A DNA stretch of 23,080 nt, from the IMG/VR virus record IMGVR_UViG_3300004097_003149, positions 1-23,080 of that record; one strand, given 5' to 3'. This document shows positions 5,894 through 23,080 of the stretch, piece by piece; the first letter of the stretch is position 1, and each line of letters opens with the position of its first letter. The position numbers and the translations under genes were made by a program. Below the pieces are notes generated by a model. The model was not told the origin of the DNA. It did no database searches and worked only from the letters and a program-made list of their open reading frames with translations. This DNA is from a virus.

Positions 5894-6942
5894 TGAAGCA
5901 GGCAGTACTTGGATATGAAAAACAATTCTTTATAGACGGCACTCAAATATCAGGAGTCCAGTCTGTAGAAGGTTCCTATGCTATACAGGAAAAACCTATA
6001 AATGTATTAGGTTGGGGGCATGTTAATCATAATTTTAATGACCTGCAGTCAACCTTAACTCCAGAGGCTTTTGAGCCTAATGGAGAATATGTCAGGAATG
6101 ATGCATTTGTTTTAACGGAAGATGGGTTTAGGGTTACCACGAATGAGTCATGCTTGGATAGGAAGCCGACCTCAACGCCGAAAAGTCTTGCCGTTGTTAA
6201 CTCTCCATTGGAGGGCTCTTTTTCTATTAATTCAGTTTTGGTTAGTGAGGACTTTATGCTTAATTATACTGGCGATATATCTTTTACTGGAAGTATACAT
6301 CATGGATCTCAATATTTTGGTTTTTATAATGGGTTCGTGACTAGTCATAGTGTCTCTTGTGGGGTTGGACAAATACCTACGACATCAACGAGTATATCGA
6401 TATATGGAGATATAGGGGGCAATCCAGACTTTTTTAAAATAGAAGATACAGAAGGTAAAATTAACCAAGAGAACGAATTTGCGATAGCTGAAGAAACAAG
6501 TATGGGGGAGCACCCTTATAATGCATCGGGGAAAAACCCATTCCCAGAAATTAGAGTACCTAATCACGGTTCAATTAGTGTTGAGTGCAGGGGTGCTAAG
6601 ACAAATAGAGTAACAAATTTTCAGCACACAATAAACTCTCCAAGGGATGCGATATATACAGTAGGTTCTTCAACCTGTGCTCAAGTAGATATAAGATGGC
6701 CAATAACTAGTTCTACAAGCTTTACTATAGAAGTTGATGAATATGAATATGGCAGAATGAGAAAATATTTAACCGCCCCAACAGTAGAAGATATATGTAT
6801 TAATATCAATGATTGTTTTGGTGCTAAAATAGAAAAATATAAAGTTATAGAAGCCAGGTTAGTAGGTGAGTCTGTGTCAGCTGGCGTAGATGGAAGATTA
6901 ACTGTAAATTTATCATATAATTCTTATTATAATAAGAGATGA
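5893..6942 (+). CDS. Tail protein, probable tail-tube-like fold (first of two related genes)
   Basis: A 349-residue protein, probably structural, lying between the tape measure and the M-like gene. No named family is certain. It is beta-rich with no signal peptide or membrane segment. The segment at residues about 142-178 (NGFVTSHSVSCGVGQIP, then a Ser/Thr strand ending SIYG) resembles the 'YVTSLSLSxxxGDIPxxxVSFxG' strand pair of tail-tube proteins. The same layout occurs in the next gene, and both proteins end in a Gly-Arg/Leu strand followed by a Tyr-rich tail. Its start overlaps the tape-measure stop (TAATG) and has a strong Shine-Dalgarno. By position it could be a specialised tube or tip ring around the end of the tape measure. 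The tube-fold call is inference from short motifs; an Ig-like decoration is an alternative. Confidence 0.55.
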   Translation: MKQAVLGYEKQFFIDGTQISGVQSVEGSYAIQEKPINVLGWGHVNHNFNDLQSTLTPEAFEPNGEYVRNDAFVLTEDGFRVTTNESCLDRKPTSTPKSLAVVNSPLEGSFSINSVLVSEDFMLNYTGDISFTGSIHHGSQYFGFYNGFVTSHSVSCGVGQIPTTSTSISIYGDIGGNPDFFKIEDTEGKINQENEFAIAEETSMGEHPYNASGKNPFPEIRVPNHGSISVECRGAKTNRVTNFQHTINSPRDAIYTVGSSTCAQVDIRWPITSSTSFTIEVDEYEYGRMRKYLTAPTVEDICININDCFGAKIEKYKVIEARLVGESVSAGVDGRLTVNLSYNSYYNKR

Positions 6943-8147
6943 GTAAGCCTTTTGTTAGATATGAAGATGTACCTTTATTGTTAGCTCATGAAGGTGATGA
7001 CCCTGTGTTTATATTTGCTAATAATGCCAGCATTGGTGTGTCTCAACAAATAAATTCTAAAAAATTTGATGACGATTATAAAATATCGTTGGCTATGCAG
7101 ACTGGTGATGTATACTTTCCTGAGGCAATGGAAAGTGGCTTTATTCTTGGTCCTAAAGATGGACCTGCATATAAAGTACCAGAATCAATAGAGGTTATTA
7201 GGGCTGGAGCTAAGATCTCATTTCCTTCGGAGCAATCTTTAGTACTTACGGAAGATTTGCATCCTGGCGATTATCATGTCAAGGTTAGGTCTACTGGAGA
7301 AACCCTGTTGAGCTATAACGATGATATTGAATTTGGCGAGGTGGATGTAGTTAGGCATTATGCAGCAGAGAATGGAGCAAGGGGTAATTTGTCTATAAGT
7401 TATTATATGAATACGGGTAATATTCATTCGTTTTTTAATATAACTGGATTAGTTAATAAAGAAATATACCCGCAGGTTCATGAGGGTAAGATCACTGGCT
7501 CTCTGGGAGACTATAAATTTAATGATGCATATATAAAAGAGCTTTCATTTAGTGCGAGACCCTACGAGATAATAGAGGCCAGAGTTTCAATAGATATATT
7601 TGGTACTCTTGATTACCAGTCTGGGATATCAGAGGATTTAATTAATAATGGGTATTATTGCACTAGGCAGGAGCAAATAACGGTACCTCATGCCGTAGGC
7701 ACACAAATAGATGGAATAAAAAACATAGGTATGGAGTTCCCCCTTGACTTTACATACACGGTAACCTCAGAAAGGCTTCCAACTTATGAAATGGATGCTA
7801 GTGGTAACCTTGGTCCAGGGGGAGAAGTTCCTGTAAGGGTTAATAAGCAGGCTATAGATATAACAGCTCAAATTATGGGAGAAAAATTAGACCCTTATCT
7901 CCAAATTACTGGACAGAGGGCAGATTTAAATGTAAGGCTATCGGATATAGGTTTTAGTAAAGAGTTTACAGACAATAATCAAGGATTGCTTGGGGAGTTT
8001 AGATTGATAGGAAATGTGGTCTACCCAGAGCAAACACAGGAAATGCAATTGCTTGAAAGTTATGGTGTGGTTGATTCGGATAACTTATCTGTGAGCGATC
8101 AAGGATATCTTCAGGGTAGAGCAAGCATAAAGCAGTCCTACAGATAA
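6939..8147 (+). CDS. Tail protein, paralogue of the preceding gene, probable tube-like fold
   Basis: A 402-residue protein of unknown exact role that looks distantly related to the product at 5893. Shared landmarks in the same order are a 'GxxSI' strand (GNLSISYY here, GSFSINSV there), a 'GxITGS' strand (residues about 184-190), and 'AYIKELSFSARPYEIIEARVSIDIFG' type strands (about 197-222). In both, these precede a second beta-rich half and a C-terminal Tyr-containing end. The AYI..LSFS..PYEI segment resembles tail-tube and tip-ring proteins. The second half has its own beta pattern ending RASIKQSYR. The start overlaps the upstream stop (ATGA) without a good Shine-Dalgarno, suggesting coupled translation. 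No catalytic motif is seen. A tail-tip structural role is likely; the fold is not certain. Confidence 0.55.
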   Translation: MSKPFVRYEDVPLLLAHEGDDPVFIFANNASIGVSQQINSKKFDDDYKISLAMQTGDVYFPEAMESGFILGPKDGPAYKVPESIEVIRAGAKISFPSEQSLVLTEDLHPGDYHVKVRSTGETLLSYNDDIEFGEVDVVRHYAAENGARGNLSISYYMNTGNIHSFFNITGLVNKEIYPQVHEGKITGSLGDYKFNDAYIKELSFSARPYEIIEARVSIDIFGTLDYQSGISEDLINNGYYCTRQEQITVPHAVGTQIDGIKNIGMEFPLDFTYTVTSERLPTYEMDASGNLGPGGEVPVRVNKQAIDITAQIMGEKLDPYLQITGQRADLNVRLSDIGFSKEFTDNNQGLLGEFRLIGNVVYPEQTQEMQLLESYGVVDSDNLSVSDQGYLQGRASIKQSYR

Positions 8148-11100
8148 TGGATATACCCGTTCCAGAGCAATGGTCAAAAACCAAGCGTTATCAAAAAAAT
8201 GACATTGTTATTACTAAGAACTTATCATTTCCTGATGATGAAAGCTTGAGGGGCACTTTAGTGGGGGATGACTTCGCTACAAAGTTAACACCTTTTAATT
8301 TCATTGAAGATCAGGAAGGTTATTACCTTACTGTAGATTTTGAAGAAAATGCAGACCTCAATCAAGATATGGAGATGCAGCTTGGATATGATTTTGATGT
8401 TAATCCCAATTTTGGATATACGGGGAAGTGCATGATTAAGAAGTCAAGTGAAGGCACTGAATCTAATGACGATTTTATAACCATAATAACAGAAAAATTA
8501 AACGCTATAGGGGCAGATCAAATTGATTTAAAAAATTCTATAGGTATAGGTGTGGGCATGAAGTTTTACGACTTGCAAAATAATCAAGTAAGAAATGCTG
8601 ACATTAGAGAATACTTTAGAATGGTTGCTATGGACGATCTAAGTAGTAGAGATTTTCTCTATGCTCAAGTAGATATTCCAGATAACCTTATACCAGATAA
8701 TGTGGTTACTGGCAGGCTTTATGTTGTAGTATGTGGCTTGAGATCTGGAGGAATTGTGTTTAGGAACCCTGGGGCATATAATTTATCTAGTTATTTTTAT
8801 TGCAAGAAAGATCATAATTCTAATGAGATTAATTCTCCGAATAGTGCAGGAGCCAAAGAGGTTTGGGATCAAGATTTTTTCTGGAGACCTAGTTATGGTT
8901 CTAGTGTGAGTTTTGCGGCTCAAAATGAAATAATTAAACTCGGAGAGGGATACGATCAGGTTACAAATAAGGCAATTAATTGTCTACCTATGGAGTTGCA
9001 ATTGAGGTTTGAAAACAGAAGTGACAAGGAGGCTAAGGCTATAATACATTTTCTTCAAGAGAAGTTTTTTCCATACGACTCTATGTTCTCGATTAATTAC
9101 AAAGGCGAGAGGCTGCTATCTAATGATGTAGCTAAATTTAAATTTGAATACTCTTACCCTTACAAAAAGAACCTGAGGTATACTTGTTTAAAGTTTTCTC
9201 ATGAAAAATCATACAGGAATAATAATAATATAGCGGCGACATTCGCCTGCAATACACAGAGTACAATAGAAAGCGTTGATAGTCATTTTGGGTATAACAA
9301 AAGGATTGACGCTCTCATACCAGTTTCCATAGATGAGCCAACTGAATTTAAAAAAGGAGAGCCTCAGAAATTAAGGTTATTTAGTTTAGAGACGGTAGAG
9401 GAAGAGGAGTTCGATCAGGAATATGAAGCTTTGGATAGAGGTGTAACTGGAGCTGTAGAATTAAGAAAAATTGTTAAAAAAATATCAAGATACCCAGAAG
9501 ATGAGGCATTGCCAATTGAGGGGGGTATTGTAGAGTTTAAGGAAGATTATGTAGTTAAAGTTAAGACTTGCATGTTTTTGCAGATTAAAGAACCTAACGA
9601 AGATTCTATATTTAATTTTGGGAATATACAAATACAGGAGAGGCTAGATGCAAAGAGGTATGTGTTTACAGGTATACTAGAGGAAGGTTCAGAAGCTCCT
9701 GTGGAGTGGCCTATGATTATACCGCCTGGGCAGGCTGATAGGGTGGGCCAAGGGATGGTTTTAGACGATAAGAGGAATAGAGTGATTATTGACCCGTTTC
9801 CGCTTGATGAAACTCCCACAGTATATGAGCAGTTAACCAATGAGGAAATACCTTACTCCTTAGTGAGGCTTGCTAGGTGTCCAAGTGATTGCTTGTCAAG
9901 TCAGCCAGCTTTACCTAATGAAAATATAGTAATCCCGCCAACTACAACTGACTCTAATGGGAATGCTAGACCTAGAGAAGTTTTCCTAAAAAACTACAGG
10001 AAAGTAAAAATACTAAGCGAAATAAGAAAGAATAGTACGGATGTAATATTGGAGCCCACTAGTGACTTTGTTATGGATGGAGATTTTGATTTACATATTC
10101 CAGCTGTATTTGGAAGGTCTAGTATTTATATAGATGATCCCGACGAGATAACATCATTTCAGTTTTTAAAAGTTAGAAGCTTCGACTTTAAGCCTTCTAT
10201 GGGTTTTTCAATAGAGCATTCCCCCAAGCACCTTCAGACGGAGTTCACTAAAGTATATAAAAAATATACAAAAAAATCTATTAATCAAAACTTGTCTACT
10301 TATAATGTTTCATTTAATCAAAGAACTGATAAGGAGGCTAAAGAGATACTGTTGTTTTTAGAGAGTCATCTTGGTTATAGAAAATTTAGATTTCAAATGC
10401 CTAGGCCTTATGGTAAGGACTTAGATCATCAGACTACAGGTAGCACTCCTTCTTCGTCTATATTTTATTGCCCCAGTTGGAATCACACCAATGTATATAA
10501 AAATAATAATACAATTACTGCAACGTTTATAGAATCGGCAACTTCTATACCAGAAGATTTGCGAGCAATGTTTGGTATAGGTAAGCCAGAGGAAGGCTCA
10601 TGTTTTGGGGCGGAAATATATAACATGATTACAATGCATACATTGTGCGTATTATCATCGACTCTTGAAGCTGCTTACACTAGGGCGAATTATTTTAGGT
10701 CTGGAGAAATTAGAGCATTCTCTCCCCCTCCTAGACCAGCTGGCCTTAAGGTGCATTTTTCTGGGATAGGGATACAGGATGACTTTTATGATCTTGAGCA
10801 CGATTATATAGCCGCCCAAGTCAATGTAAGGAAACAGTATGGAGGTTTAATTACAAATGGAACTTGCACTAGTCAGGCTTTTATTGAAGACGGATTCTCT
10901 AATTTAGTAGGACCAGGAGAATACCCTGTAGCCAGTGTAATTATACCAAATGTACTTGCGTCTTTATCAGAGCCAGATGACGATCTTTCGAGGCAAAAAG
11001 GGAGGTTGGATTCTGTTGCTATAGGTCCTCTAACTCAAGTTGAAATATATGACCAGGAGAATTTTCAAGGTAATTTAATTTTAAATGTTGTGGGTCCAGC

Positions 11101-11386
11101 TATTATATATAATAACTTTTGGGTTGAATCAACAGACAGGTTCTTGATATGGGATAAAAAATTAGAGAACTCTGTATATAAATTTGATTATGAGTTTGAG
11201 TTGGGTATAGGTGTGCAAGGAGCTTGGACTCAAACACAGTCTCAGAACTCGGGTAATTTTGCATACTTGCCCACGGTTAGAGATAAGTCTTGGTTGTACT
11301 ATAAGGGGTTGAGCCAAAACCAAGTTAAGTGGTCAAAGAGTAGCTGGAAAGATATTGGGTCGTTTAAAATAAGATATTTAGGATGA
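8147..11386 (+). CDS. Large tail-tip protein with two minor-tail-protein-M-like domains
   Basis: A 1079-residue structural protein in the gene M position, immediately before an accessory cassette and upstream of L. Lambda gpM (Phage_min_tail family) is only about 110 residues. Domain 1, residues about 245-373, has the family hallmarks: FWRPSYGSSVSF, then LGEGYDQ, then 'SDKEAKAIIHFLQ' and FSINY. Domain 2, residues about 678-800, repeats them: 'TDKEAKEILLFLES' and FRFQMP, ending NNNTITATF against NNNNIAATF in domain 1. The N-terminus (residues 8-25) has an aromatic/Asp 'W..Y...DIV' module. The C-terminus (about 955-1079) has a possible beta/gamma-crystallin-like motif, EIYDQENFQG. The middle (about 460-640) is beta-rich and unassigned. 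The start overlaps the upstream stop (TAATG). It is probably a tip hub or collar component carrying extra surface domains. M-like identity is good for both domains; the rest is inference. Confidence 0.75.
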   Translation: MDIPVPEQWSKTKRYQKNDIVITKNLSFPDDESLRGTLVGDDFATKLTPFNFIEDQEGYYLTVDFEENADLNQDMEMQLGYDFDVNPNFGYTGKCMIKKSSEGTESNDDFITIITEKLNAIGADQIDLKNSIGIGVGMKFYDLQNNQVRNADIREYFRMVAMDDLSSRDFLYAQVDIPDNLIPDNVVTGRLYVVVCGLRSGGIVFRNPGAYNLSSYFYCKKDHNSNEINSPNSAGAKEVWDQDFFWRPSYGSSVSFAAQNEIIKLGEGYDQVTNKAINCLPMELQLRFENRSDKEAKAIIHFLQEKFFPYDSMFSINYKGERLLSNDVAKFKFEYSYPYKKNLRYTCLKFSHEKSYRNNNNIAATFACNTQSTIESVDSHFGYNKRIDALIPVSIDEPTEFKKGEPQKLRLFSLETVEEEEFDQEYEALDRGVTGAVELRKIVKKISRYPEDEALPIEGGIVEFKEDYVVKVKTCMFLQIKEPNEDSIFNFGNIQIQERLDAKRYVFTGILEEGSEAPVEWPMIIPPGQADRVGQGMVLDDKRNRVIIDPFPLDETPTVYEQLTNEEIPYSLVRLARCPSDCLSSQPALPNENIVIPPTTTDSNGNARPREVFLKNYRKVKILSEIRKNSTDVILEPTSDFVMDGDFDLHIPAVFGRSSIYIDDPDEITSFQFLKVRSFDFKPSMGFSIEHSPKHLQTEFTKVYKKYTKKSINQNLSTYNVSFNQRTDKEAKEILLFLESHLGYRKFRFQMPRPYGKDLDHQTTGSTPSSSIFYCPSWNHTNVYKNNNTITATFIESATSIPEDLRAMFGIGKPEEGSCFGAEIYNMITMHTLCVLSSTLEAAYTRANYFRSGEIRAFSPPPRPAGLKVHFSGIGIQDDFYDLEHDYIAAQVNVRKQYGGLITNGTCTSQAFIEDGFSNLVGPGEYPVASVIIPNVLASLSEPDDDLSRQKGRLDSVAIGPLTQVEIYDQENFQGNLILNVVGPAIIYNNFWVESTDRFLIWDKKLENSVYKFDYEFELGIGVQGAWTQTQSQNSGNFAYLPTVRDKSWLYYKGLSQNQVKWSKSSWKDIGSFKIRYLG
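8879..9265 (+). repeat. M-like domain, copy 1 of 2
   Basis: Residues 245-373 of the 1079-residue protein. The order is W-x-P-S-Y-G-S strand, LGEGYDQ (the family's G-D/E-G-Y-x-Q turn), a strand ending RF, then the helix SDKEAKAIIHFLQ, the strand FSINY, a YPY-containing segment, and a closing NNNNIAATF strand. Copy 2 is at 10178-10546. The copies share order and key residues but little DNA identity, so the duplication is old. Confidence 0.65.
10178..10546 (+). repeat. M-like domain, copy 2 of 2
   Basis: Residues 678-800 of the same protein. The order is SFDFKPSMGF, a variable loop, the strand TYNVSFNQR, the helix TDKEAKEILLFLES, the strand FRFQMPRPY, then CPSW and the closing VYKNNNTITATF. The helix plus 'G-x-x-x-F-x-F/W-x-x-P' pattern is the better match of the two to lambda gpM-type proteins. 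Confidence 0.65.
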
Positions 11387-14100
11387 GTACTGCAAAGAAA
11401 TATAATAACCTTTTTTATGTAAGGGATCATCAGGTTGATTTAATATTCTTAATTGATGCATCTTCGTCAATGAACGACAGGATAAAAGTTCCAACTGAAA
11501 ATGGCGTTAAGATATTTAAGAAGATAGATGTAATTAACGATATGTTAAAAAAGATCACAACAGTACACGATTGTGATGTTATGCCAGGTACGAATAATTT
11601 TGGATTTGAATCATTAAAGACTCCGAAAATAGATCATGTAAACAAGGTGCCGCCATGGGGAACTAATCCAGATGGAACAAGTATGTCTCAAGAAGACCTA
11701 GAGTCGATGCCGATTGGTTACTTGAGAAGGTTTAATGTAAAAATAGAAAACCAAAAAATAAATATTGGAATAATTAAAATATCTTCAGAAGATGATACTG
11801 AAATTATATCTGGTTTAATGAATTACCCTGATAATTTTAATAGGCATTACTTGTATGAAAAAATAAAAAATGGGGTTGGCTCTTCAAAGGGTAAAGATTA
11901 TTTGCATGCAACTCAATTGGCACTTTATGAAATGTTTTTTGGACCTAGATCTAAACAGGTATTAAAAAGATTTTTGTTTTATATAGGTGATGCATTTACA
12001 CCAAGGAATAAAGACGCGATAGAATTATGCAATGCACTAAAGCCTGAAAATTTATTATCAATGAGGAGGCCTTTGGATATAGATTTAAAAGGCTATGAGA
12101 TAGTAAACAAAGAAGATAAAAAACCTTTAAGGTATAATGGGGCCAATAAATCAGAGTGGTATGTGCAGCCTTGTAGTGCTGTAAGTTTGTTTGCGGGGGT
12201 GGGATCTCAAGCGAAAGGCGTTTCTAAGAAAGCTAAGGAATATGCATTTGATTACGAAAAGAACCCAATGAATCCAATGGGTTATTTGGACATATCTAGC
12301 GAAAGTTCTGCTGGTCAATTCAATAGGATTTTAGGTATAGTAAATGTAGTTGAGAGATTATCTTATGATAATGGCTTTGAGAATGTGTTTTCGGTAACGC
12401 TCCATAATTGTGGCCCCCACGAGGTAACGTTACTGAACACTATTGTTAATTTTGAAAATGATACGGATGATACTCCAGAAGAAGACAGGTCTATACCTTA
12501 TGTAGGTGCAACAAAATATACTACAGAATTTCTGAAGTCTGGTATACCTAGGGGTAATAACCTTTTTGATATAAAGACAATGTCGCCAGGTGAAGATGGT
12601 TCTATTGGGTACGGAAAAGTTGAGGCTGGCTTCGAAGGGGATGAGAGGCCTGGGTTCCTTGTAGATAGGGACTCAGTGGAGAATATATCTATGGCCTTTG
12701 AGGCTACGGCAGACGATGATCCTGACGATATTATAGGAGGTAGAAATAATAACTTTGTTCCAGGTAGAGGGGGGCAATTTTATGGTGACCCAGAGAATGC
12801 AGACTTGTTCGAGGATAGTAACAGTAACTACAATATACTGTGGCATTCTTTTAATAACCAGTATGAAGTGTACAGAAGGGGAAAAATATATAACATAGAT
12901 GGAGGGTGGGCCTCACACTGGAGGGAGAGTAAGGGGGTCAAGAATGATGGTGTAGCTTTTAAGGGTATGCCTGTTAGGGTTTTCAAATCTGAATCTACTG
13001 GATTTGAGATTGTAGATTATAACATTGGCAACGCTACAGCAGAAAACGGATATATGGGTGACTATGGTCACTTGCCTATAATAGAAAGAGGAGGGGAGAT
13101 AGATTTATTTTTCGGAATAAGAGTTGGAGAAACCCTCGATGTGAGTAATGATCTAACAGCTTATGACTCACTACTTGAAAGGGTGCAGTTATTCTTTAAC
13201 TCTGAGGATAAGACTTTAAATAAAATGGCATGCTTTGCTAATGTAGATTTTAATTTAATATGTCCGATATTTAGGCCAGCTAAAAATATTTTTCAAGGTG
13301 GTTATGATTTATTTGTTCCTTATAATGATGATGCACAGCTAGCTCCACCTTTCGATGACGTCGATGATGGAACAGTAGAAATGCCTATGGCTGGAATGTG
13401 GGAGATAACATTTGATGATGCTGCATATGTTCATAGCACTGCTAAAATAATAGTAAATGTTCCTGCTATTGGCGATAAGGCTGATGGGGATGAAAATAAA
13501 ATTCTTGCTTCAGCTATGTGTGATATTAATTTTGATACTAAAGATTTTGATATCAAGAGCTTGGTTAACGCATTGACAACAACAATAACCGATCAGGCTA
13601 GCGGCGTAACGGCTACATTAACAGCAAACTCTACCGCAGCAAAAAATGGTTATACAGCTCCAACTGTAACACCTGTACCTGTGGGTAAGTCTTACTCTAA
13701 GGCTTTGGCTTTTTATAATAAGACCGCTGGTGAGTTTTACTTAATACTAGGTGCTAGAACCGCAGCCTCTGGGGCTAATCCTCCGCCACCAGGTCTAATG
13801 ATAGGCGGAAAATCAATTAATTATTCAGCCGCAGGGACGAATGTTCCTGTACCAGATGCCTCTTATAGCACGTTGCAGTTTATATTTAAAATAGACCCAG
13901 AGAGCGAGGACACAGCTGCTGGTGATGGAAATGATTTTAAAGCCGCACTTAAGTCAGGTGGACATGGAACTTGGTACCCTGTTCAGGGGACCTGGGTTGA
14001 TTTAGTGACCCCAGGAGTTATGCCGACACCAGCTGATCCAGCGCAGGGAACCAACTGGAGGGGTAGTAGGTCTAAGCCAGTAACTATTACGAAGATATGA
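11383..14100 (+). CDS. Tail-associated protein with von Willebrand factor A domain
   Basis: A 905-residue protein. Residues about 18-230 form a vWA-type fold: a hydrophobic strand VDLIFLID, then the metal-ion-dependent adhesion site D25-x-S27-x-S29 (DASSS). A later amphipathic segment with T177 (LHATQLALYEMF) and the strand FLFYIGDAFTP (D203) sit where MIDAS residues 4 and 5 are expected. vWA domains usually mediate metal-dependent protein-protein adhesion. Residues about 333-440 and 565-630 look like beta-sandwich segments (FSVTLHNCGPHEVTL; a GGEIDLFFGIRVG strand). Residues about 724-905 are Ala/Thr/Pro/Gly-rich and differ in composition. There is no signal peptide or membrane segment. The start overlaps the upstream stop (ATGA), and it lies inside the phage tail operon. 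Structural or adhesive tip function is inferred from context; the vWA call is seen in sequence. Confidence 0.72.
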   Translation: MSTAKKYNNLFYVRDHQVDLIFLIDASSSMNDRIKVPTENGVKIFKKIDVINDMLKKITTVHDCDVMPGTNNFGFESLKTPKIDHVNKVPPWGTNPDGTSMSQEDLESMPIGYLRRFNVKIENQKINIGIIKISSEDDTEIISGLMNYPDNFNRHYLYEKIKNGVGSSKGKDYLHATQLALYEMFFGPRSKQVLKRFLFYIGDAFTPRNKDAIELCNALKPENLLSMRRPLDIDLKGYEIVNKEDKKPLRYNGANKSEWYVQPCSAVSLFAGVGSQAKGVSKKAKEYAFDYEKNPMNPMGYLDISSESSAGQFNRILGIVNVVERLSYDNGFENVFSVTLHNCGPHEVTLLNTIVNFENDTDDTPEEDRSIPYVGATKYTTEFLKSGIPRGNNLFDIKTMSPGEDGSIGYGKVEAGFEGDERPGFLVDRDSVENISMAFEATADDDPDDIIGGRNNNFVPGRGGQFYGDPENADLFEDSNSNYNILWHSFNNQYEVYRRGKIYNIDGGWASHWRESKGVKNDGVAFKGMPVRVFKSESTGFEIVDYNIGNATAENGYMGDYGHLPIIERGGEIDLFFGIRVGETLDVSNDLTAYDSLLERVQLFFNSEDKTLNKMACFANVDFNLICPIFRPAKNIFQGGYDLFVPYNDDAQLAPPFDDVDDGTVEMPMAGMWEITFDDAAYVHSTAKIIVNVPAIGDKADGDENKILASAMCDINFDTKDFDIKSLVNALTTTITDQASGVTATLTANSTAAKNGYTAPTVTPVPVGKSYSKALAFYNKTAGEFYLILGARTAASGANPPPPGLMIGGKSINYSAAGTNVPVPDASYSTLQFIFKIDPESEDTAAGDGNDFKAALKSGGHGTWYPVQGTWVDLVTPGVMPTPADPAQGTNWRGSRSKPVTITKI

Positions 14101-15473
14101 GTATCATAAATAATGATGATCAAATATGTTTGGCTTATAGTGGTGAAACCTACTATGATGATTGCGGTGGACTCCTTCAGGAGACTGGTGAGTTTTTGTC
14201 AAGAAGGAAACTTATATTAACTGACGGACAGATAGACCCATTTGAGGCTGATAAAGAGTTAAGAGATGCAGCTAAAGGAGTACCTAAGGTAATTTACTTA
14301 GAAGATTGCGAGACTACATCGATTAGTTACCCGTGCAATGAGCCTATATCTACAGTAGATCAGGGCAAGTTTGTTGAAATAGTTAATACATGCACTGAAC
14401 CAATAACGGTAACTGGTTTAAATAATTCAGACCCAACTAGGTTTACGGTATTTGACCTAGGTTATAGGGGCCTAGAAACATACCACTCTGGGGTTTGCGA
14501 AGAGCTTCCATTTACTGTTGCTCCTTATACCAAGAAAACTATACATAGCTTTTTTCATCCATCTAGAACTGAGATAGAAGATGGTAATGCTGGTTCTTAT
14601 GAAAATAGAACTGGTGATGCGTGGTCAGCGAAAGTCAGCCTGTATCCTGGCTTTCCTATACTTGGGTGCGAGGGTATGGATCCGTGTGATTCTTTTTACA
14701 CATTAAGCGGTGAGCTTTTGTGTGATCACTTCGATAGAGAGCCTTTGAAGAATTTATCTAATTATCAAGGCGTTTATGGGTGCACTGGTAACCCTATGTC
14801 AACTCTAAGGGCTTCTGACTGTCTTATTACCTCTGGTGTTTATACTGATAGTTTTAACGTTGGATACGATGAGTATACTGCGATGCAGAACTTAGCTCTT
14901 TCGGTAGAAAAAGAGTATTCGCCTTATAGTGCCAGTAATCGCGCTGATCCACCTGATGATAGCATGTATATGGCTTCAGCTTTATTTAGAGAGGCTTCAT
15001 TTGCATCCAGCAGTTTTCAGGAGCTATTATCTAAAGGTTTTACGACTGTACAGAAAACTTGGAGAAAGAGTGATGGAAGTATGGGGGTTACGGTTGGGGA
15101 TGCTTTGGAAATAACTGGGCAATATTTAAATAATTATGTAACACTTAATTATGAGAACGAGTTATACACAGGTATGAGGGTTAGGGTTTCTGTAGATGAG
15201 TCGGGGCCTTATGTTTATGATGTTGGTATATTTTTTAATTCTGAACCCGCAAACGGGAACACATTCGAGCCAGCAATATTTATGTCAGAGTGGGGAGACT
15301 TTAATACAACTAAGTTTTGTTTTGCTAGGGGGGATATAGAATTAGCAACTGAACCATACTCGCCTCCTTCAGATATTATTTTATGGAATAATAAAAAAGG
15401 AGCTGGTTCAAACGTGACACAAGTAACTGAAGAGCAGATATACAGAGTAGGATATCTGCATGGAGATAAATAA
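14097..15473 (+). CDS. Cysteine-rich tail protein with ASH/Hydin-like Ig domain
   Basis: A 458-residue protein, not a member of the lambda core tail set. Residues about 85-209 look like an ASPM-SPD2-Hydin type Ig-like domain. The sequence reads GKFVEIVNTCTEPITVTGL, then DPTRFTVFD, ELPFTVAPYTKKTIHSFF and HPSRTEI, ending at a strand before LLC. This follows the family scheme 'V.i.N.g..pl.vtgi......F.v....LPf.vaPg....v.v.F.P'. Twelve cysteines (positions 11, 23, 71, 80, 99, 134, 191, 197, 209, 229, 242, 408) are far more than in neighbouring tail proteins, but no fixed metal-site spacing is obvious. The C-terminal half (about 240-458) is beta-rich and unassigned. The start overlaps the upstream stop (ATGA). 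It is probably a tip decoration or linker partner of the vWA protein, inferred from adjacency and size. Confidence 0.65.
   Translation: MSIINNDDQICLAYSGETYYDDCGGLLQETGEFLSRRKLILTDGQIDPFEADKELRDAAKGVPKVIYLEDCETTSISYPCNEPISTVDQGKFVEIVNTCTEPITVTGLNNSDPTRFTVFDLGYRGLETYHSGVCEELPFTVAPYTKKTIHSFFHPSRTEIEDGNAGSYENRTGDAWSAKVSLYPGFPILGCEGMDPCDSFYTLSGELLCDHFDREPLKNLSNYQGVYGCTGNPMSTLRASDCLITSGVYTDSFNVGYDEYTAMQNLALSVEKEYSPYSASNRADPPDDSMYMASALFREASFASSSFQELLSKGFTTVQKTWRKSDGSMGVTVGDALEITGQYLNNYVTLNYENELYTGMRVRVSVDESGPYVYDVGIFFNSEPANGNTFEPAIFMSEWGDFNTTKFCFARGDIELATEPYSPPSDIILWNNKKGAGSNVTQVTEEQIYRVGYLHGDK
15462..15465 (+). promoter_or_regulatory. Shine-Dalgarno that favours the start at 15475
   Basis: GGAG lies 9 nt before the ATG at 15475. 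The earlier in-frame ATG at 15460 would contain this GGAG within its own second codon and has no good site of its own. The 15475 start also leaves a 1-nt gap after the preceding stop, in keeping with the tight packing elsewhere. Confidence 0.55.
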
Positions 15474-15474
15474 A

Positions 15475-16695
15475 ATGGGAAGAGTATATTATGGCTATGA
15501 CTACCAACTAGTTCCAGGGGATGGAGATAGTGGCAATCATTTGTTTAGGATTAGTAAAACTGGCGATGGATATAGTAAGTTGTATACGGCTAGCCCTATA
15601 GATTATGAAGCTTATCATCTTATGATTAATCCTTTTGTGACTATAAGATTGAGAGTTACTGATGAGAGGGGTAATTATTTTGAGAAAAAAATCACATTAA
15701 ATATATTAGATGTGCAGGAAGTTCCTGATAAGTTAAAAGTGGATGTAGTTCTTATTGGCGCTGGCGGGGGTGGAGGTGGTGCCGATGACGGCAATGGTGG
15801 TCCAGGCGGGTCTGGGTCTCAATTCGCATTTGCTACAACACTTCAAGTTGGGGAGACATACGGACTACATTTAGGGAGTGGAGGGCTTGGTGGTCTTAAT
15901 AATGCTTATTACACTTATACAACCACGGGTGGACCAGGAGGTGAAACACCTGCATTTTCTGGTGGATTTTTTGGTGGAAAGGGTGGCCATTGTGGGCCTC
16001 ATGGATCAAGTGGTGGGGGTGGAGGTGGTGGTGCTGCTACCGTACTTTCCTATTATAAGAGAGGGGGGATGGGACGAGGCTGGAGATCTATGGCTGCTGC
16101 CGCTGGTGGCGGAGGAGGGACGGGTAGAAGAGAGCTTCCAGCATACCCAGGAAGAGGTGGAGATTTAGAGTTTAAGGATACTCACTTAGCCCTATATGGG
16201 GATCATAAAACGGTCGGCGGAATAGGATTTAATTACAATGGTGATGGCCCTGGAGGGGGCGGAGGAGGGGGTGGAGCTTCAGGTGGGCAGGGAGCTAGTA
16301 GTACAGAAGGATCCTACGGAGGTAAGAGCGGTATAACCAGGACAACCTTTAAACCAACTAGTCTAACAATTGTGTCTGGACAAACAGGTAAGGTTGTTGC
16401 GGGTAGTTTTCATTTACATGGATTAGCCCAAAGAACCGCTATTGGCTCTGCACCTGGAAAATGGTGGAATAAAATGAACTTAGTACCTGCTGAGGCGGGT
16501 AGCGGAGGATTCTCTGGCTACAAAAGGGAAGATAGGTTCAATTCTAGTGGTCGACCTGGGGCAGCTATAATTAGATATAAAGACACATACCCTAGGATAA
16601 AGCTTGGAGGCTCGTATAGTCTTTCTGGGGGATATCATATACATGTTTTTAGCGGCGGTGGTACCCACAGTTTGGAGATGGAGCTTTATGAATAA
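15475..16695 (+). CDS. Glycine-rich tail adhesin with N-terminal cadherin-like domain
   Basis: A 406-residue protein (411 if the ATG at 15460 is used; 15475 is preferred for its GGAG at 9 nt). Residues 1-84 follow the cadherin-repeat scheme: an LVPGDGDSGN turn, FRIS strand, a 'L-x-T..PIDYE' loop with D43 and E45, a 'RLRVTDERG' strand plus acidic turn, and closing NILDV-E-P. From residue about 90 comes a glycine-rich domain: VDVVLIGAGGGGGG, several further poly-Gly runs to about 275, then a closing IIRY strand (365-368) and GGYHIHVFSGGGTH (385-398). This order matches the Gly-rich domain found in many phage fibre and adhesin proteins. Poly-Gly segments in such proteins can pack as polyglycine II helices (known for T4-like gp38 adhesins). 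The likely role is host-surface contact at the tail tip, by inference. Overlaps the next gene by 8 nt. Confidence 0.72.
   Translation: MGRVYYGYDYQLVPGDGDSGNHLFRISKTGDGYSKLYTASPIDYEAYHLMINPFVTIRLRVTDERGNYFEKKITLNILDVQEVPDKLKVDVVLIGAGGGGGGADDGNGGPGGSGSQFAFATTLQVGETYGLHLGSGGLGGLNNAYYTYTTTGGPGGETPAFSGGFFGGKGGHCGPHGSSGGGGGGGAATVLSYYKRGGMGRGWRSMAAAAGGGGGTGRRELPAYPGRGGDLEFKDTHLALYGDHKTVGGIGFNYNGDGPGGGGGGGGASGGQGASSTEGSYGGKSGITRTTFKPTSLTIVSGQTGKVVAGSFHLHGLAQRTAIGSAPGKWWNKMNLVPAEAGSGGFSGYKREDRFNSSGRPGAAIIRYKDTYPRIKLGGSYSLSGGYHIHVFSGGGTHSLEMELYE
16674..16683 (+). promoter_or_regulatory. Shine-Dalgarno deciding the start at 16688
   Basis: GGAGATGGAG ends 4 nt before ATG 16688. It supports 16688 over the upstream in-frame ATG at 16604, whose extra 28 residues would come from the coding strand of the preceding gene in another frame. 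Confidence 0.65.
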
Positions 16696-18445
16696 GTATA
16701 GTTTTAATTCTGGTAGCGAAAACCCTAATAATGATGGGTTGAGATTTAATGTAGCAATGGACCCTGGGTCTCATTCTACTTTAATTATAAGAAATGTTAG
16801 TGGAAGTGGGGTTGTCAACTACTTAACGGATTCAGATTATTTATACCACGTATCGAGGGTTCCTTATAAAGAGGATTCGTATAGAGAGGTGAGCTCTAGT
16901 CTTAGCACAAACCTTTCTTACCCTAGTGGGGTGTCCATAATACCTGGCAAAACTGTATGCGTTAATGCTTCGTCTGAGAATGTAGAGGGTATATATAGAT
17001 TACCTGTGGGATCTAGGATTTATTCAGGACAGTATAGTGATAAGCAATTGATAACTGGTGGACTACTTGATGATGAAAGTAACTACTATGATATTACTAT
17101 GGATGGGTTTGAGTATTCTAATTTAATTGATCCTGAAGAATTTTTTCAAAGTGGCTGGGCTGTGTCTGGGGGATTAAAAGTTTCATTTGTTGAGTCAATT
17201 AATGAATCAATGCCTTTTATTGATATAGAGAATATGGACACAAGCTCTGGTCAAATCGCCAGAATGGATATATATTCATCAGAACTAAATGGTTCATTTT
17301 TTAATTTAACTATAGAGAATGATATAACGGCCACGGGAATACCTGGAGATGATTATGATTCAAATGTAGTGGGAGACCCTTCTGAGTTTAATAAAAAACA
17401 AGACGAGGTAGAACCTTTTGTCGTTGGTGGGCAAACCGAGCTAAAGCTAATAGAAGAATGGAATAGTTTATTTTCAATAAACAGGGGAACCAATATCGAG
17501 GATGAGTTTTCAAACGGCAAGGGCAGGGACGAAGTTTTTATTGAGGCTGTGAAGAAATTCCTAGATAAAAATTGGGATACATCTATGAAGCAGTTTTTAT
17601 GGGGCGATATTATTGGAAGCAATGAAATAAGAAGCGAGCTAACAGTTAGGTCCGCCCCAGGACTAAGGATGGCAATATTTTTTCAACTGTACTATTACGG
17701 GGCATCTGATGATATTAAAATGCTTTCTGAATATATGGGGCAAAAGCAACGGCTAGGTAAGACTATGGAGTGGCATATGGGTTTAGGGGGAATGTCTAAG
17801 GTTTCTAGTAAAACCAGAAAGTTGAAGCAAGAGTATACATATATGTCTACAAGTAGGTCTTATAAAAAAATTTATAAGGTGTATGATATGCCGCCTAGAA
17901 ATTCTTTTACTGCAACATCTGAATCCAATGAAGCTATGTTTGATAATATAGGCGAGGGTTACATTGAGGAACCGAAAGTTGTTTCTGGGTTTTATCCATT
18001 GTATTTTTCTAGAAGTTATGCGGAATCCGAAGGAGGGGGATTTGCTGGCAGTTTAATTTTTAATGAAAAAGAATATTATATGCCTTCTGGTTTGGTTTCT
18101 GGTAGTACATATTTTCATGGAGATTATGACCCTCAGGTTTTAATATCTTATTTAAATGAACAAGATTTTGATTTAAGCGGAACATATGAAGAGTCAGGAA
18201 GTATTGAAGTTGTGCAGGCTGGTTACGGTTACTCAGATCCAGTCACATTATATCAGGAGGAATCTTATGTAGCAACAGGAGAAGATCAAGAAGAAGAGGG
18301 TGTGCCTGAAATTTCTGGACAGTTAGGTTACGATGTTAATACGGGTAACTATGCTCCAGTTGTGGGTACAGATGACCCAGAAGTTGCTCAGCATATTGCA
18401 GAGCAGACATTTTTGATAGATTTTTTTAACGAACAGGGGATTTAG
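16688..18445 (+). CDS. Unrecognised 585-residue tail-region protein
   Basis: I do not recognise a named family. The start at 16688 has a good Shine-Dalgarno and gives an 8-nt overlap with the preceding gene. Residues about 17-100 and 155-215 are beta-rich with an Ig-like feel (FNVAMDPGSHSTLIIRNVS; FFNLTIENDITATG). Residues about 280-350 are more helical (FIEAVKKFLDKNW, then PGLRMAIFFQLYYYG). Residues about 431-480 contain SGFYPLYFSRSYAE followed by EYYMPSGLV and TYFHGDY. This recalls a short 'YPLY..xxEA.....YYMPxG....HG' module I associate with aquatic phage fibre and tip proteins, though I cannot name a family. The C-terminus is acidic (EDQEEEG near 531-537) and ends FFNEQGI. It lies directly upstream of the L-like gene with a 2-nt gap. 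A tail-tip or fibre-attachment role is inferred from context only. Confidence 0.6.
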   Translation: MNKYSFNSGSENPNNDGLRFNVAMDPGSHSTLIIRNVSGSGVVNYLTDSDYLYHVSRVPYKEDSYREVSSSLSTNLSYPSGVSIIPGKTVCVNASSENVEGIYRLPVGSRIYSGQYSDKQLITGGLLDDESNYYDITMDGFEYSNLIDPEEFFQSGWAVSGGLKVSFVESINESMPFIDIENMDTSSGQIARMDIYSSELNGSFFNLTIENDITATGIPGDDYDSNVVGDPSEFNKKQDEVEPFVVGGQTELKLIEEWNSLFSINRGTNIEDEFSNGKGRDEVFIEAVKKFLDKNWDTSMKQFLWGDIIGSNEIRSELTVRSAPGLRMAIFFQLYYYGASDDIKMLSEYMGQKQRLGKTMEWHMGLGGMSKVSSKTRKLKQEYTYMSTSRSYKKIYKVYDMPPRNSFTATSESNEAMFDNIGEGYIEEPKVVSGFYPLYFSRSYAESEGGGFAGSLIFNEKEYYMPSGLVSGSTYFHGDYDPQVLISYLNEQDFDLSGTYEESGSIEVVQAGYGYSDPVTLYQEESYVATGEDQEEEGVPEISGQLGYDVNTGNYAPVVGTDDPEVAQHIAEQTFLIDFFNEQGI

Positions 18446-18447
18446 AC

Positions 18448-19506
18448 ATGGTTGATAGACAAAAAGTAAAAGATTTATTTGAGGCAGATCCAACTATGCC
18501 CATTGTATTATACGAGCTAGACTTACAGGATAGGGGTATGTATTATTTCCATGCAGGAGAAAATGGGTTTTTAAATAAAATAGTTTTCGACGGTAAGGCT
18601 TATGATTATTATCCTATTGAGGTTGAGGGTTTTGATTTTCAGGGTGACGGTAGGCTTCCTAGACCCAAAATGACCTTAGCTAATTTTAGAGGCAACATTT
18701 CAATTAGGTTGCCTATATTTAATGATTTTATTAATTATAAATTAGAAAGAGTTAAAACTCTTGTTAAGTATTTAGACCATGTAAACTTTCCTAATAATGT
18801 TAACCCTCATGCAGAACCTGATAGTGAAGAAGTTTTTGCTAGGGAAATATATTTTGTTAACCAGAAATTGGCTGAGACAGACTCACTTGTTCAGTTTGAA
18901 TTAGTATCTCCATTGGAGTTGGAAAACTCAGAAATACCATCTAGAACTATATACTCAAACTATTGTAGCTGGAGATATAGGTCTAGCATAGGATGTGGGT
19001 ACAATGGTAGACCTATAGCTGATAAGAAGAATAAAAGATTTGTTGAGAGTGGATACGAGGGAGACGGGGTAGGTGGCGAAGTGCATTTAACCAATGAAGA
19101 TATGCTGAATCCTGATATTAATATAACAAATTTTGCAGGCACAGGAGATGTTGTAGGGGATTATCCAGAGTGGAGCCCGTATGAAGAGTATACATCAGGA
19201 GATGTAGTTAAAAGAATATCCAGAAAAGGGGACGCTGAACTATATCCAGAGACAATATATGTATGTATGGGGGATGGTATACAGTCTAACCCTTTGTTCG
19301 ATAAAAAGAATTGGATTGAGGATTCTTGTGATAAAAGCTTATGTGGCTGCAGGATGAGATTTTCTGACGATGCAGAGAATGCGGGAGGTTGTCATAGGAA
19401 GAGAGGTTCTAGTAAGTTTAGGGATGTTAATCAAAAATACAAAGAATCTTCTCATGGTTTGCCTTTTGGAGCTTTCCCTGGAGTAGAGCCTTATGACTTC
19501 AAGTAG
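18448..19506 (+). CDS. L: Minor tail protein L-like, Fe-S tail-tip protein with inserted domain
   Basis: Homologue of lambda gpL, a tail-tip component needed early in tail assembly. The order matches gpL along its length: LYELDL and FHAGENG (about 20-40), IVFDGKAYDYYPIEVEGFDF (45-64), RPKMTLANFRGNIS (72-85), LVKYLDHVNFPN (105-116), REIYFVNQK (132-140), VQFELVSPLELE (148-159), the Cys region, and LPFGAFPGVEPY at the end. C173, C183, C294 and C301 correspond to the four cysteines that ligate the iron-sulfur cluster in lambda gpL; the 7-residue spacing of the second pair is kept. Between the pairs is an insert of about 110 residues against about 22 in lambda. It includes a carbohydrate-binding-module-like stretch (W242, Y245, Y248, GD251-252, W289). 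A Shine-Dalgarno (AGGGGA) lies 7 nt before the ATG, and the end overlaps the K-like gene by 14 nt. Identity as L-like is strong. Confidence 0.88.
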   Translation: MVDRQKVKDLFEADPTMPIVLYELDLQDRGMYYFHAGENGFLNKIVFDGKAYDYYPIEVEGFDFQGDGRLPRPKMTLANFRGNISIRLPIFNDFINYKLERVKTLVKYLDHVNFPNNVNPHAEPDSEEVFAREIYFVNQKLAETDSLVQFELVSPLELENSEIPSRTIYSNYCSWRYRSSIGCGYNGRPIADKKNKRFVESGYEGDGVGGEVHLTNEDMLNPDINITNFAGTGDVVGDYPEWSPYEEYTSGDVVKRISRKGDAELYPETIYVCMGDGIQSNPLFDKKNWIEDSCDKSLCGCRMRFSDDAENAGGCHRKRGSSKFRDVNQKYKESSHGLPFGAFPGVEPYDFK

Positions 19507-20249: not shown

Positions 20250-23080
20250 ATGAAAAATGTAAGGTTACATGGAAAATTAGGTAAACGATTTGTTAAATCG
20301 GCTGACTTTGATGTGTCTACTCCTGTAGAGGCTATGGCGGCCTTGATGGCGAACTACCCAGATATAAGGTATTATTTAGCTAAAAAAGAACAGGAGGGGG
20401 TTCAGTATGGAATTAAGAGTAGGAAGACTGGTCAATTTCTAGGTAGCGAAGAGTTGGGCATGATTATGGATGGTGGCCTTGATATTGTACCTGCACCAGC
20501 TGGTGGTGGATTGGCCGCTATAGCTATGAGTGTGGTCACAAGTTTAATTAGCGGTTTTATGCAAAACCAAATAGATAAGGGCTTGAAGCAGGATGACACC
20601 GTGCTCACAATGCAAAGTAATTCCTTCATATTTAAGGGTAAAGAAAATAGATACGAGCAGGGTACTACGGTTCCATTGGGTTATGGCAGGATGCTGGTTG
20701 GGTCTAGTGTTGTCTCAAACTCTATTAACAATTATGATTTAAACGCAGAAACTGGGGGAATTTATACTCTTGAGGTTGGAGCTTATACTATGTTGCCCAA
20801 CTACGCTCCCTGGGATAAATTTTATGACGAAGATTTAGGGCCACTTAAGTCAAGCGCATTAAGGTCGGTTGCGGAAGGGTACTCTGAGCTGGCTGTATCT
20901 AATCCGAATTATAAAGCGTTAAAGAAAACTTTAAGTGGTACAAAGTTTGGATCAAATGACGGTATATATGGAAGTAGTGTTATAACTGATGGTCATGAAT
21001 ATAGTAAGAAAATAGGTGGAGGGTTTTTTGGGAGTTTAACTTATAAAGTTGTATATAATCAGTCTGTATCAGAGGCATTTTTAACTAACTATAGTACTAA
21101 CGGAAACTTCACTCCAGTAGCTATGCTGTCAACATATCCAGACCAAGATTTATCAAAAATCCCGCCAGAAGAAAAGGCTAAGCTTGGTGTAATGAGATTC
21201 TTTAATTATTCGGGATACGAGAAAAAATTAAGAGAGCTCGTTCAGAAAGCTTACGATTTACCGAATTGGAATGGACCAAGTGATACTGTTACCCAGGAGT
21301 ATGTAGAGGAAAAGTATTTAAGAAGATCTGCTTTCGCTGTATTACAAAGCAGACCTAGGCCTGAAACTATAGATCCAAATGTTGAGCCAAGAAGGTATTG
21401 GCCTATAGGATTTAGTAACGGTGAAATAATAGAGCCAGGGGGTAGTTTTGGGTACGGGGACGCTTTAATGGTTGGGTCTAGATACAAGAGTGGATCAAAA
21501 GAGGGGGGGCTTGGTTGGCATAAGTTTGAATCTGTATCTGTGTCGAAAGCTGTAGACTTAATATGTGAGGGACCTATACAAGGATTTTGCGATCCAGATG
21601 GTAATTATTTAGAATTTAAGGACACTAAGTCAGCTACAAATAAAAATACTCAAGTTAGCTCTGACGATGATTATTTAAGGGGAGTTTTCCTTAACGATTA
21701 TCCAGTTAAGGAGGTTAAGGAGCTGAGTTCCACGCAAAGACAGGCGGTTTATAATGTTAATGAATTTGATATTGATGTGTCTAGAAACCCAGATGGAGAA
21801 ATGGGGTCAAATGATCAAGCCTTATTGGAGAGTAAGTATCAATTTGTAGCTGAAACCAAACAGGTAGGGGGGAAGTTGTTTGGCCCGCATACATTAGATG
21901 CTGCAGCGGCTGCCGCAGCGGCAGGCTCTGAAATTAGACAATGGAGTAAGAAGTCACCTTTTTTCAATAAAGGGGCATATGTAACGCACTTAGAGGAAAA
22001 GTACAAATGTCTTAGGTCTACTAATACATTGTTTAGTCGTTTGGATAATTTTATTAGAAGCCCTTTTGATATACCTCACATAGTTGTTCATAACGCAAAG
22101 CTTTTGAATGGTGGCGGTGGTTATATTGAGTCGGGTGATTTATATATGTCAACTAATGCTTTTGTTACTGATGAAGATGATCCATTTGCTATAGGAGAAT
22201 TTATTGCAAACGCAGAGTATGAGTCTGGTAACATTGTGTTCGAAAGGGCCGAGTATTTGGGCAATGATCCTTTTGGCAATGATGACGAAGCTCAGGAAAT
22301 AGCTAACAATGAGCCGCTTTTATTAAATATGGAAGATCCTGATTCAATGGGGGTTGATGTTGCTTATTGGGAAGCGGGCCCTAACGCTAAGAAGGTAAAG
22401 AAATATAAAGCTGGGGATGCTTACGATGTCGGTGATATTGTCTACGAGTCTCAATTGAAAGTTTTTAAAGTGAAGACAGCTGTAGCTGAATGGGACGCTA
22501 CTATCCTGCAGGCGGGTGCATCCGCTAGTGACGGAAAGGGCGTAGAGGTAATTTCACTAGAAGATGAAGCAATGTTTGAGCAAGCATCAAGGAAAGAGCA
22601 TAAGGGCTTTTTAGCTGCAATAGCATATTTAGATTCTAATGCATTTTCTCCAGTTGATGTGTCTCCTAACAATACTCAGTACTGGGTTCCTATATTTGCT
22701 GGAAGTAATCCTGATTCATTCACGGATGCAGAAGGGCAACCTTTGTATCATGACCCAACTGGGGCTGGAGCTACTAATCCAGATAATTTAAATCCAGTAT
22801 TCAAAAAGGCTGGCGGGGATGATCTTGGTCTTACTTTTAGACCTGAAGAGGAGTATCCTATATCTCATATAATAACAAACCAACTGGTTGACCAAGCTTT
22901 GGTTTCTATACAAATTGATGCATTGTCTTATATGTATCCAGGTGATAAGGTTGAGGTTTCATATGAGGTTGGTGCATTAATGATGTCTTTATTGGGTGCT
23001 ATTATTGGTGTTGGGGCATCAGCAGATATAATGTCTGAAGGAGACGAAGTTCCTCCTGATGTAATGTCTTATATAGCTGC
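20250..23080 (+). CDS. Fused tail assembly protein I / host-specificity protein J (3' partial)
   Basis: The frame is open from the ATG at 20250 to the right edge (943 codons, no stop), so the protein is cut by the window. Residues 1 to about 160 match lambda gpI: VRLHGKLGKRF, then STPVEAMAAL, a hydrophobic Gly-rich stretch (85-104), FIFKGKEN, and VPLGYGRMLVGSSVVS (141-156). In lambda this ends gpI and J is a separate gene. Here the frame continues through about 270 unassigned residues into the J N-terminal landmarks: SVSKAVDLICEGPIQG (E440) and GVFLNDYPV (478-486). Later come an Ala8 linker (551-558), a Y..GDIV module (718-731 and on to about 819), and ISHIITNQLVDQALVSIQIDAL. J forms the tip hub and central fibre that binds the receptor; the receptor-binding C-terminus lies beyond the window. 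The fusion is read directly from the sequence; functions are from family knowledge. Confidence 0.85.
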   Translation, partial: MKNVRLHGKLGKRFVKSADFDVSTPVEAMAALMANYPDIRYYLAKKEQEGVQYGIKSRKTGQFLGSEELGMIMDGGLDIVPAPAGGGLAAIAMSVVTSLISGFMQNQIDKGLKQDDTVLTMQSNSFIFKGKENRYEQGTTVPLGYGRMLVGSSVVSNSINNYDLNAETGGIYTLEVGAYTMLPNYAPWDKFYDEDLGPLKSSALRSVAEGYSELAVSNPNYKALKKTLSGTKFGSNDGIYGSSVITDGHEYSKKIGGGFFGSLTYKVVYNQSVSEAFLTNYSTNGNFTPVAMLSTYPDQDLSKIPPEEKAKLGVMRFFNYSGYEKKLRELVQKAYDLPNWNGPSDTVTQEYVEEKYLRRSAFAVLQSRPRPETIDPNVEPRRYWPIGFSNGEIIEPGGSFGYGDALMVGSRYKSGSKEGGLGWHKFESVSVSKAVDLICEGPIQGFCDPDGNYLEFKDTKSATNKNTQVSSDDDYLRGVFLNDYPVKEVKELSSTQRQAVYNVNEFDIDVSRNPDGEMGSNDQALLESKYQFVAETKQVGGKLFGPHTLDAAAAAAAAGSEIRQWSKKSPFFNKGAYVTHLEEKYKCLRSTNTLFSRLDNFIRSPFDIPHIVVHNAKLLNGGGGYIESGDLYMSTNAFVTDEDDPFAIGEFIANAEYESGNIVFERAEYLGNDPFGNDDEAQEIANNEPLLLNMEDPDSMGVDVAYWEAGPNAKKVKKYKAGDAYDVGDIVYESQLKVFKVKTAVAEWDATILQAGASASDGKGVEVISLEDEAMFEQASRKEHKGFLAAIAYLDSNAFSPVDVSPNNTQYWVPIFAGSNPDSFTDAEGQPLYHDPTGAGATNPDNLNPVFKKAGGDDLGLTFRPEEEYPISHIITNQLVDQALVSIQIDALSYMYPGDKVEVSYEVGALMMSLLGAIIGVGASADIMSEGDEVPPDVMSYIA
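21900..21924 (+). repeat. Poly-alanine tract containing a GC-rich palindrome
   Basis: Eight consecutive Ala codons (21900-21923) encode residues 551-558 of the I-J protein. Within them CTGCCGC-A-GCGGCAG (21910-21924) is a perfect 7-bp inverted repeat around one base, and GCAGCGGC occurs twice. The tract is much more GC-rich than its surroundings. It probably encodes a flexible or helical linker; slippage or hairpin formation is possible. Confidence 0.6.

Follow-up and report, generated by a model that had tools for sequence, protein, structure and literature searches.

A vWA-bearing gene block between the M- and L-like tail-tip genes of an uncultivated phage lineage is a probable exchangeable host-adhesion module

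Introduction

The tail-tip genes of phage lambda are ordered M, L, K, I and J, with nothing located between M and L, and the product of the first of these genes, gpM, is a single-domain protein of 109 aa that assembles into a six-copy ring with 3-fold symmetry (PMC10721106). This protein itself carries no extension (PMC7291167). The stretch of viral DNA studied here, a virus record of 23,080 bases that we refer to as the window, matches lambda in the families and the core order (M, L, K, J) of its tail-tip genes, but differs from it in that four large genes, designated A, B, C and D, are inserted between M and L. A preliminary description of the window had proposed that these four genes may together form a separate host-recognition structure at the tip that is different from the J fibre. 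This raises the questions whether the four genes belong together, how they are connected to the tail tip, and what they could contribute to infection.

Results

The window carries the tape measure gene, truncated at the left edge, followed by T1, T2, the M-like gene, A, B, C, D and the L-, K- and J-like genes, the last being truncated at the right edge. All of these genes are located on the + strand (Table 1). M, L and K of the lambda-type tail tip were identified by family match (Phage_min_tail, Phage_tail_L and JAB/NlpC, respectively). The four large same-strand ORFs between the M- and L-like genes were found exactly where the preliminary description had placed them. This description had also stated that the genes are coupled by overlaps and in frame. 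Consecutive genes do overlap, by 4 nt (ATGA) between M and A, 4 nt between A and B, 14 nt between B and C, and 8 nt between C and D, with a gap of 2 nt between D and L, but neighbouring ORFs lie in different reading frames. For D, a longer call starting with TTG at position 16604 would overlap C, and the ATG start was used. Counts of promoter- and terminator-like sites were no higher than the shuffle expectation.

Table 1. Coordinates of the M-to-J genes considered in this study, and the basis of their assignment.
Feature	Length	Position in window	Strand	Basis
M-like distal tail (Dit) protein	1079 aa	8147..11386	+	Pfam PF05939
A	905 aa	11383..14100	+	predicted vWA fold; Pfam VWA in relatives
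B	458 aa	14097..15473	+	ORF; partner of vWA in 38/38 complete intervals
C	411 aa	15460..16695	+	weak Cadherin and Gly_rich_2 matches
D	585 aa from ATG	16688..18445	+	ORF conserved in relatives
L-like hub protein (right-hand flank of the cassette)		18448..19506	+	Phage_tail_L, E 1.7e-46
J-like		20250-23080	+	position and profile across relatives only

T1 and T2 (window 5893-8147), which are situated between the tape measure gene and M, are kept throughout the lineage, and T2 is also present in relatives without the block. Neither protein has a convincing family match. A paralogous relationship between the two was hinted at by iterated profiles, but was not seen in direct comparison.

Viral contigs of IMG/VR were scanned with L, D, A, B and C as queries, using pattern-based scans of a limited sample of the database, and the interval from M to L was mapped in the resulting set of about 80 distinct contigs. 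This allowed us to distinguish three states (35, 34 and 4 contigs, respectively), the counts of which do not represent independent events because many contigs come from related samples. In the first state, M, mostly of about 390 aa, is followed directly by L, with no part of the block in between. In the second state, M and a vWA segment at its C-terminal end form a single protein of about 1300-2530 aa, with some of these ORFs truncated by a contig end. B invariably comes next, and D is present as well in 19 of the 34 cases. The third state consists of the window and the contigs L003, L004 and L005, where vWA is encoded separately by gene A, and C is located between B and D. The L-like protein of the window is 84% identical to its counterpart in L003. 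The A, B and D proteins are 57-69% identical in L003 and 36-46% identical in L004 and L005, with the same order and place of the genes, so that these ORFs are not a product of chance. In a tree of the L proteins the split, C-bearing subclade groups with full support (100/99), adjoining the fused forms.

All 38 complete intervals that bear vWA also contain B, and neither A without B nor B without A was observed among these, while members of the D family occur in 23 of them and C is confined to the split subclade. The block as such does recur between M and L in relatives, with A and B as constant and C and D as optional members. However, the four genes cannot be regarded as equal accessory genes, since 34 of the 38 intervals encode vWA within the M protein, B is constant, D is optional, and C is limited to one subclade. 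The pattern argues that the block extends the M ring, with A and B as its core and C and D as optional additions, and that the vWA gene was split off from M in the subclade of the window. The preliminary description had held that independent occurrence of the four genes in unrelated contexts would speak against a common system; no such occurrence was found in the scans made, and A and B were not encountered outside the M-L context in the viral contigs scanned. No relative of A (query A7) was detected in the bacterial and archaeal genome collection, and INPHARED phages gave no isolate match for A or D, nor any match for the fused protein of L007, T2 or the vWA segment of L043. A single-sequence scan of viral contigs with A returned nothing, and sequence searches of PHROGs and the PDB with A and B were uninformative. 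As judged from these searches, the block is known from one uncultivated IMG/VR lineage.

The M-like protein contains tandem Phage_min_tail domains at about residues 243-306 and 678-796 (PF05939; E 1.3e-20 for the whole protein and 2.2e-8 for residues 1-450). The tandem arrangement rests on the Pfam results, because cross-hits between the profiles of the two domains after iteration may be inflated. With two such domains per protein, three copies could supply a six-domain ring. The C-terminal module of M, termed MX (236 aa, residues 844-1079; window 10676-11383), is located where vWA begins in relatives, and BLASTP also detects it in L016 and L018 (E 1e-6 to 3e-6), where the M-vWA fusion bears it at the tip. 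In the subclade of the window, the gene split and MX are both located at the M/vWA linker. An MX-related piece was also seen on B of L018, by iterated profile only, and the MX-like piece is possibly a mobile tip domain. A is physically tied to M by the fusion in 34 of the 38 intervals. On the truncated contig L033 (positions 1-750), an M domain is joined straight to a B domain, without vWA.

In protein A we distinguished a vWA domain (about residues 15-345), a conserved beta 'mid' region (about 345-630) and a variable C-terminus (about 640-905). AlphaFold models were built on 12-20 sequences, and the AF2 model of A has a pLDDT of about 80 over the vWA domain. The top Foldseek match of this domain in the PDB was the A/I domain of TgMIC2 (4okr, E 7e-5, probability 1.0), and factor B and ANTXR1 were matched as well. 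The initial reading of A as a vWA protein was upheld by this predicted fold, as well as by Pfam VWA, which matched 11 of the 20 family members with a best value of 1.2e-4. The predicted fold is common to A and the surface vWA/I-domain adhesins (TgMIC2, ANTXR), but the vWA of the cassette differs from these in its MIDAS. In the window, motif 1 (DxSxS) and the Asp of motif 3 are kept, and the Thr of motif 2 is apparently replaced by Asp (GKD), while L008 and L013 have lost motif 1. Because the MIDAS is incomplete and not conserved, metal-dependent adhesion is not a conserved function of this domain.

Protein B has a conserved N-terminal domain and a variable C-terminal half, with four Cys residues (C80, C99, C197 and C209) invariant across 22 sequences. 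Its former label as an ASH/Hydin-like protein is backed by weak Ig-type matches only (Cep192_D4, 0.02, in 2 of 22 members; TMEM131L Ig, 0.13-0.24), and the N-terminal domain is possibly an ASH-like Ig domain. As the obligate partner of vWA, B is likely to be a connector. For C, the earlier cadherin and Gly-rich reading holds, albeit weakly. The protein has a cadherin-repeat-like N-terminal anchor (about residues 11-95), which in isolation matches Cadherin PF00028 with E 0.003 and 18.3 bits (curated cut-off 28.8), and a glycine-rich head matching Gly_rich_2 (E 0.0033 in the window and 3.7e-4 in L003). In L004, this anchor is retained and the head is replaced by PA14 (E 1.8e-8), L005 being closely similar to L004 in this respect. 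D is predicted to consist of an N-terminal beta region (about residues 16-212), a helical region (about 250-356) and a variable tail of low confidence; the model has a mean pLDDT of 56, and the fold search gave no match below E 0.09.

Further domains of binding type were identified in the intervals of L006 (LamG, collagen and CBM5/12), L025 (SprB repeat, 1.5e-9) and L009 (FGE-sulfatase, 1.8e-34). The protein with the FGE-sulfatase domain is located directly upstream of L in L009 (positions 2-1270). L095 has several fibre-like ORFs between D and the contig end (12628-18107), where L is expected, and these include a repeat-rich protein of 1014 aa as well as acidic DSDGDG repeats.

Comparison of closely related contigs revealed that the block is replaced by recombination. 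L013 and L041 share 99.7% nucleotide identity along the first 5064 bp. This near-identical stretch stops 46 nt short of the vWA start, some 5 nt beyond the second M domain match. Across vWA, B and D there is no near-identical DNA, with only patches of about 69 and 77% identity, and from 84 nt before L onward the two contigs are again 99.3% identical over 8183 bp. The cassette version of L041 is also found in L012 and L024. We considered an assembly chimera as the source of the L013 swap; this can be rejected for the right junction, which is repeated with 99.7% identity in L014, an independent contig from a separate metagenome, while the left junction rests on one contig. A second event is apparent from L023 and L044, which are about 90% identical on both sides and have breaks at -29 nt from the vWA start and -57 nt from L. 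The two independent events, both of which were observed in fused-form relatives and not in the window's own subclade, indicate that everything between the M/vWA linker and a point shortly upstream of L is exchanged in one piece. In three other pairs (L010/L011, L016/L018 and L026/L032) the C-terminal tip of the M-vWA protein alone was replaced, with 21-51% identity at the tip versus 84-100% in M, vWA, B, D, L and K. The breaks in these pairs fall some 1.8-1.9 kb downstream of the point where vWA begins, close to the end of the mid domain. A diversity-generating retroelement (DGR) appears disfavoured as the source of variation, as no RVT_1 was detected in 7 lineage records, possibly fragments, other than that of the window; one of these, the L009 record (22 kb), has no reverse transcriptase.

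The receptor-binding part of lambda J is C-terminal, unlike the variable region in the J-like protein of the present lineage. As judged from L024, L041, L010, L011, L016, L018, L019 and L021, residues 180-960 of the latter are hypervariable in close relatives (45-72% identity in otherwise near-identical pairs), and residues 960-1500 are conserved (94-98%). L024 and L041 have the cassette in common (97-99%) and differ in the J variable stretch (64%). Conversely, L013 and L041 have the J variable stretch in common (98%) and differ in the cassette. The cassette thus varies independently of J, which argues that it is a second module and not part of the J fibre. In this sense the proposed separation from the J fibre stands, the module being exchanged as a whole.

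The terminase of the L004 contig (200,094 bp) is 22.5% identical to its best-covering match in the phage collection, and among the matches listed the L004 and L156 terminases are about 22-23% identical to the best phage-collection records. By this measure, the block belongs to a deep uncultivated phage lineage without close relatives in the searched phage collection.

Discussion

Based on the present data, we consider the block to be a modular host-adhesion appendage that is built onto the M ring and exchanged by recombination, a reading to which we assign a probability of about 0.7. Support for an exchangeable host-recognition module is provided by the tip swaps, the PA14, collagen/CBM and SprB domains found at the site, and the independent variation of J. 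Three copies of the tandem-M protein would form a six-domain ring, which would carry or hold the vWA 'arm' (A), with B as a fixed connector and C and D as optional decorations, C presenting, on its cadherin-like anchor, a binding head that can be exchanged. The arm would extend from the tail tip and bind glycans or proteins of the host surface, thereby complementing J. Specificity would be changed by recombination that replaces either all of the DNA between the M/vWA linker and a point just upstream of L or the tip of the arm alone, so that outer parts are exchanged while ring and hub remain constant. The presence of two independently varying loci would fit two-step or two-receptor adsorption. 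The chances are about even that the block is, more specifically, an undescribed host-recognition cassette of exchangeable nature, composed of a vWA arm on a tandem-M ring with dedicated partners and independent of J, with its left boundary inside a structural gene, at the M/vWA linker.

It is also conceivable, but unlikely, that vWA and B serve to assemble or stabilise an enlarged tip cone, such as a collar or baseplate, and that the observed divergence reflects recombination with co-adapted partners rather than receptor choice. The vWA and mid regions of A and the N-terminal domain of B are always retained, with many invariant residues, and the lack of a conserved MIDAS would also be in keeping with a structural role. 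However, replacement of the cassette leaves M, L, K and J on either side at 98-100% identity, which would not be expected from co-adaptation to neighbours, and domains of the lectin and CBM type are exchanged at the site. Variable positions beside hub genes are a usual place for depolymerases, and D or the variable tips might accordingly degrade capsule or surface polysaccharides on the way to the J receptor. The repeats of the 1014-aa ORF downstream of D in L095 do resemble a beta-helix by eye, but A to D have no convincing match to a hydrolase or lyase family and D has no fold match, which makes an enzymatic role quite improbable. That unrelated genes without a common function accumulated between M and L, as the optional nature of C and D and the restriction of C to one subclade might suggest, can hardly be reconciled with the constant pairing of A and B at this site only, the fusion of A to M, and two independent events in which the entire interval was exchanged at matching breakpoints.

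The modular adhesion appendage that we favour has its closest parallels in the evolved Dits of Gram-positive siphophages, in which binding domains are added to a ring protein and the decorations vary among close phages (PMC7291167, PMC10688798). Such evolved Dits aid adsorption (PMC10688798). Extra binding-type domains on a distal tail protein are likewise found here, in the form of M fused to vWA and variable tips (34/38). In evolved Dits, however, CBMs are inserted in the galectin-domain loops of one Dit, whereas the present cassette consists of a lambda-type tandem M with a C-terminal vWA arm and partner proteins, which together make up an exchangeable block of several kb. No CBM was found in M, and PA14- and CBM-type domains are located on separate proteins in relatives. 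By description, the cassette can also be likened to the collar protein p132 and the side tail fibres pb1 of T5, which are accessory tip fibres apart from the central fibre; the passages of PMC11313276 that deal with them do not mention vWA. No vWA tail-tip proteins were found in the literature searched. The vWA proteins reported from archaeal siphoviruses are located in the replication/accessory region or are CobT-like.

Taken together, our findings point to a probable site of host-specificity change in an uncultivated lineage with contigs of up to 200 kb, and suggest that the lambda-type distal tail ring, which is very simple in lambda, can bear a swappable, putative adhesion device. The two recombination boundaries offer ready module limits for structural and host-range work, in which host range would be predicted to track two independent loci, the cassette and the internal region of J.
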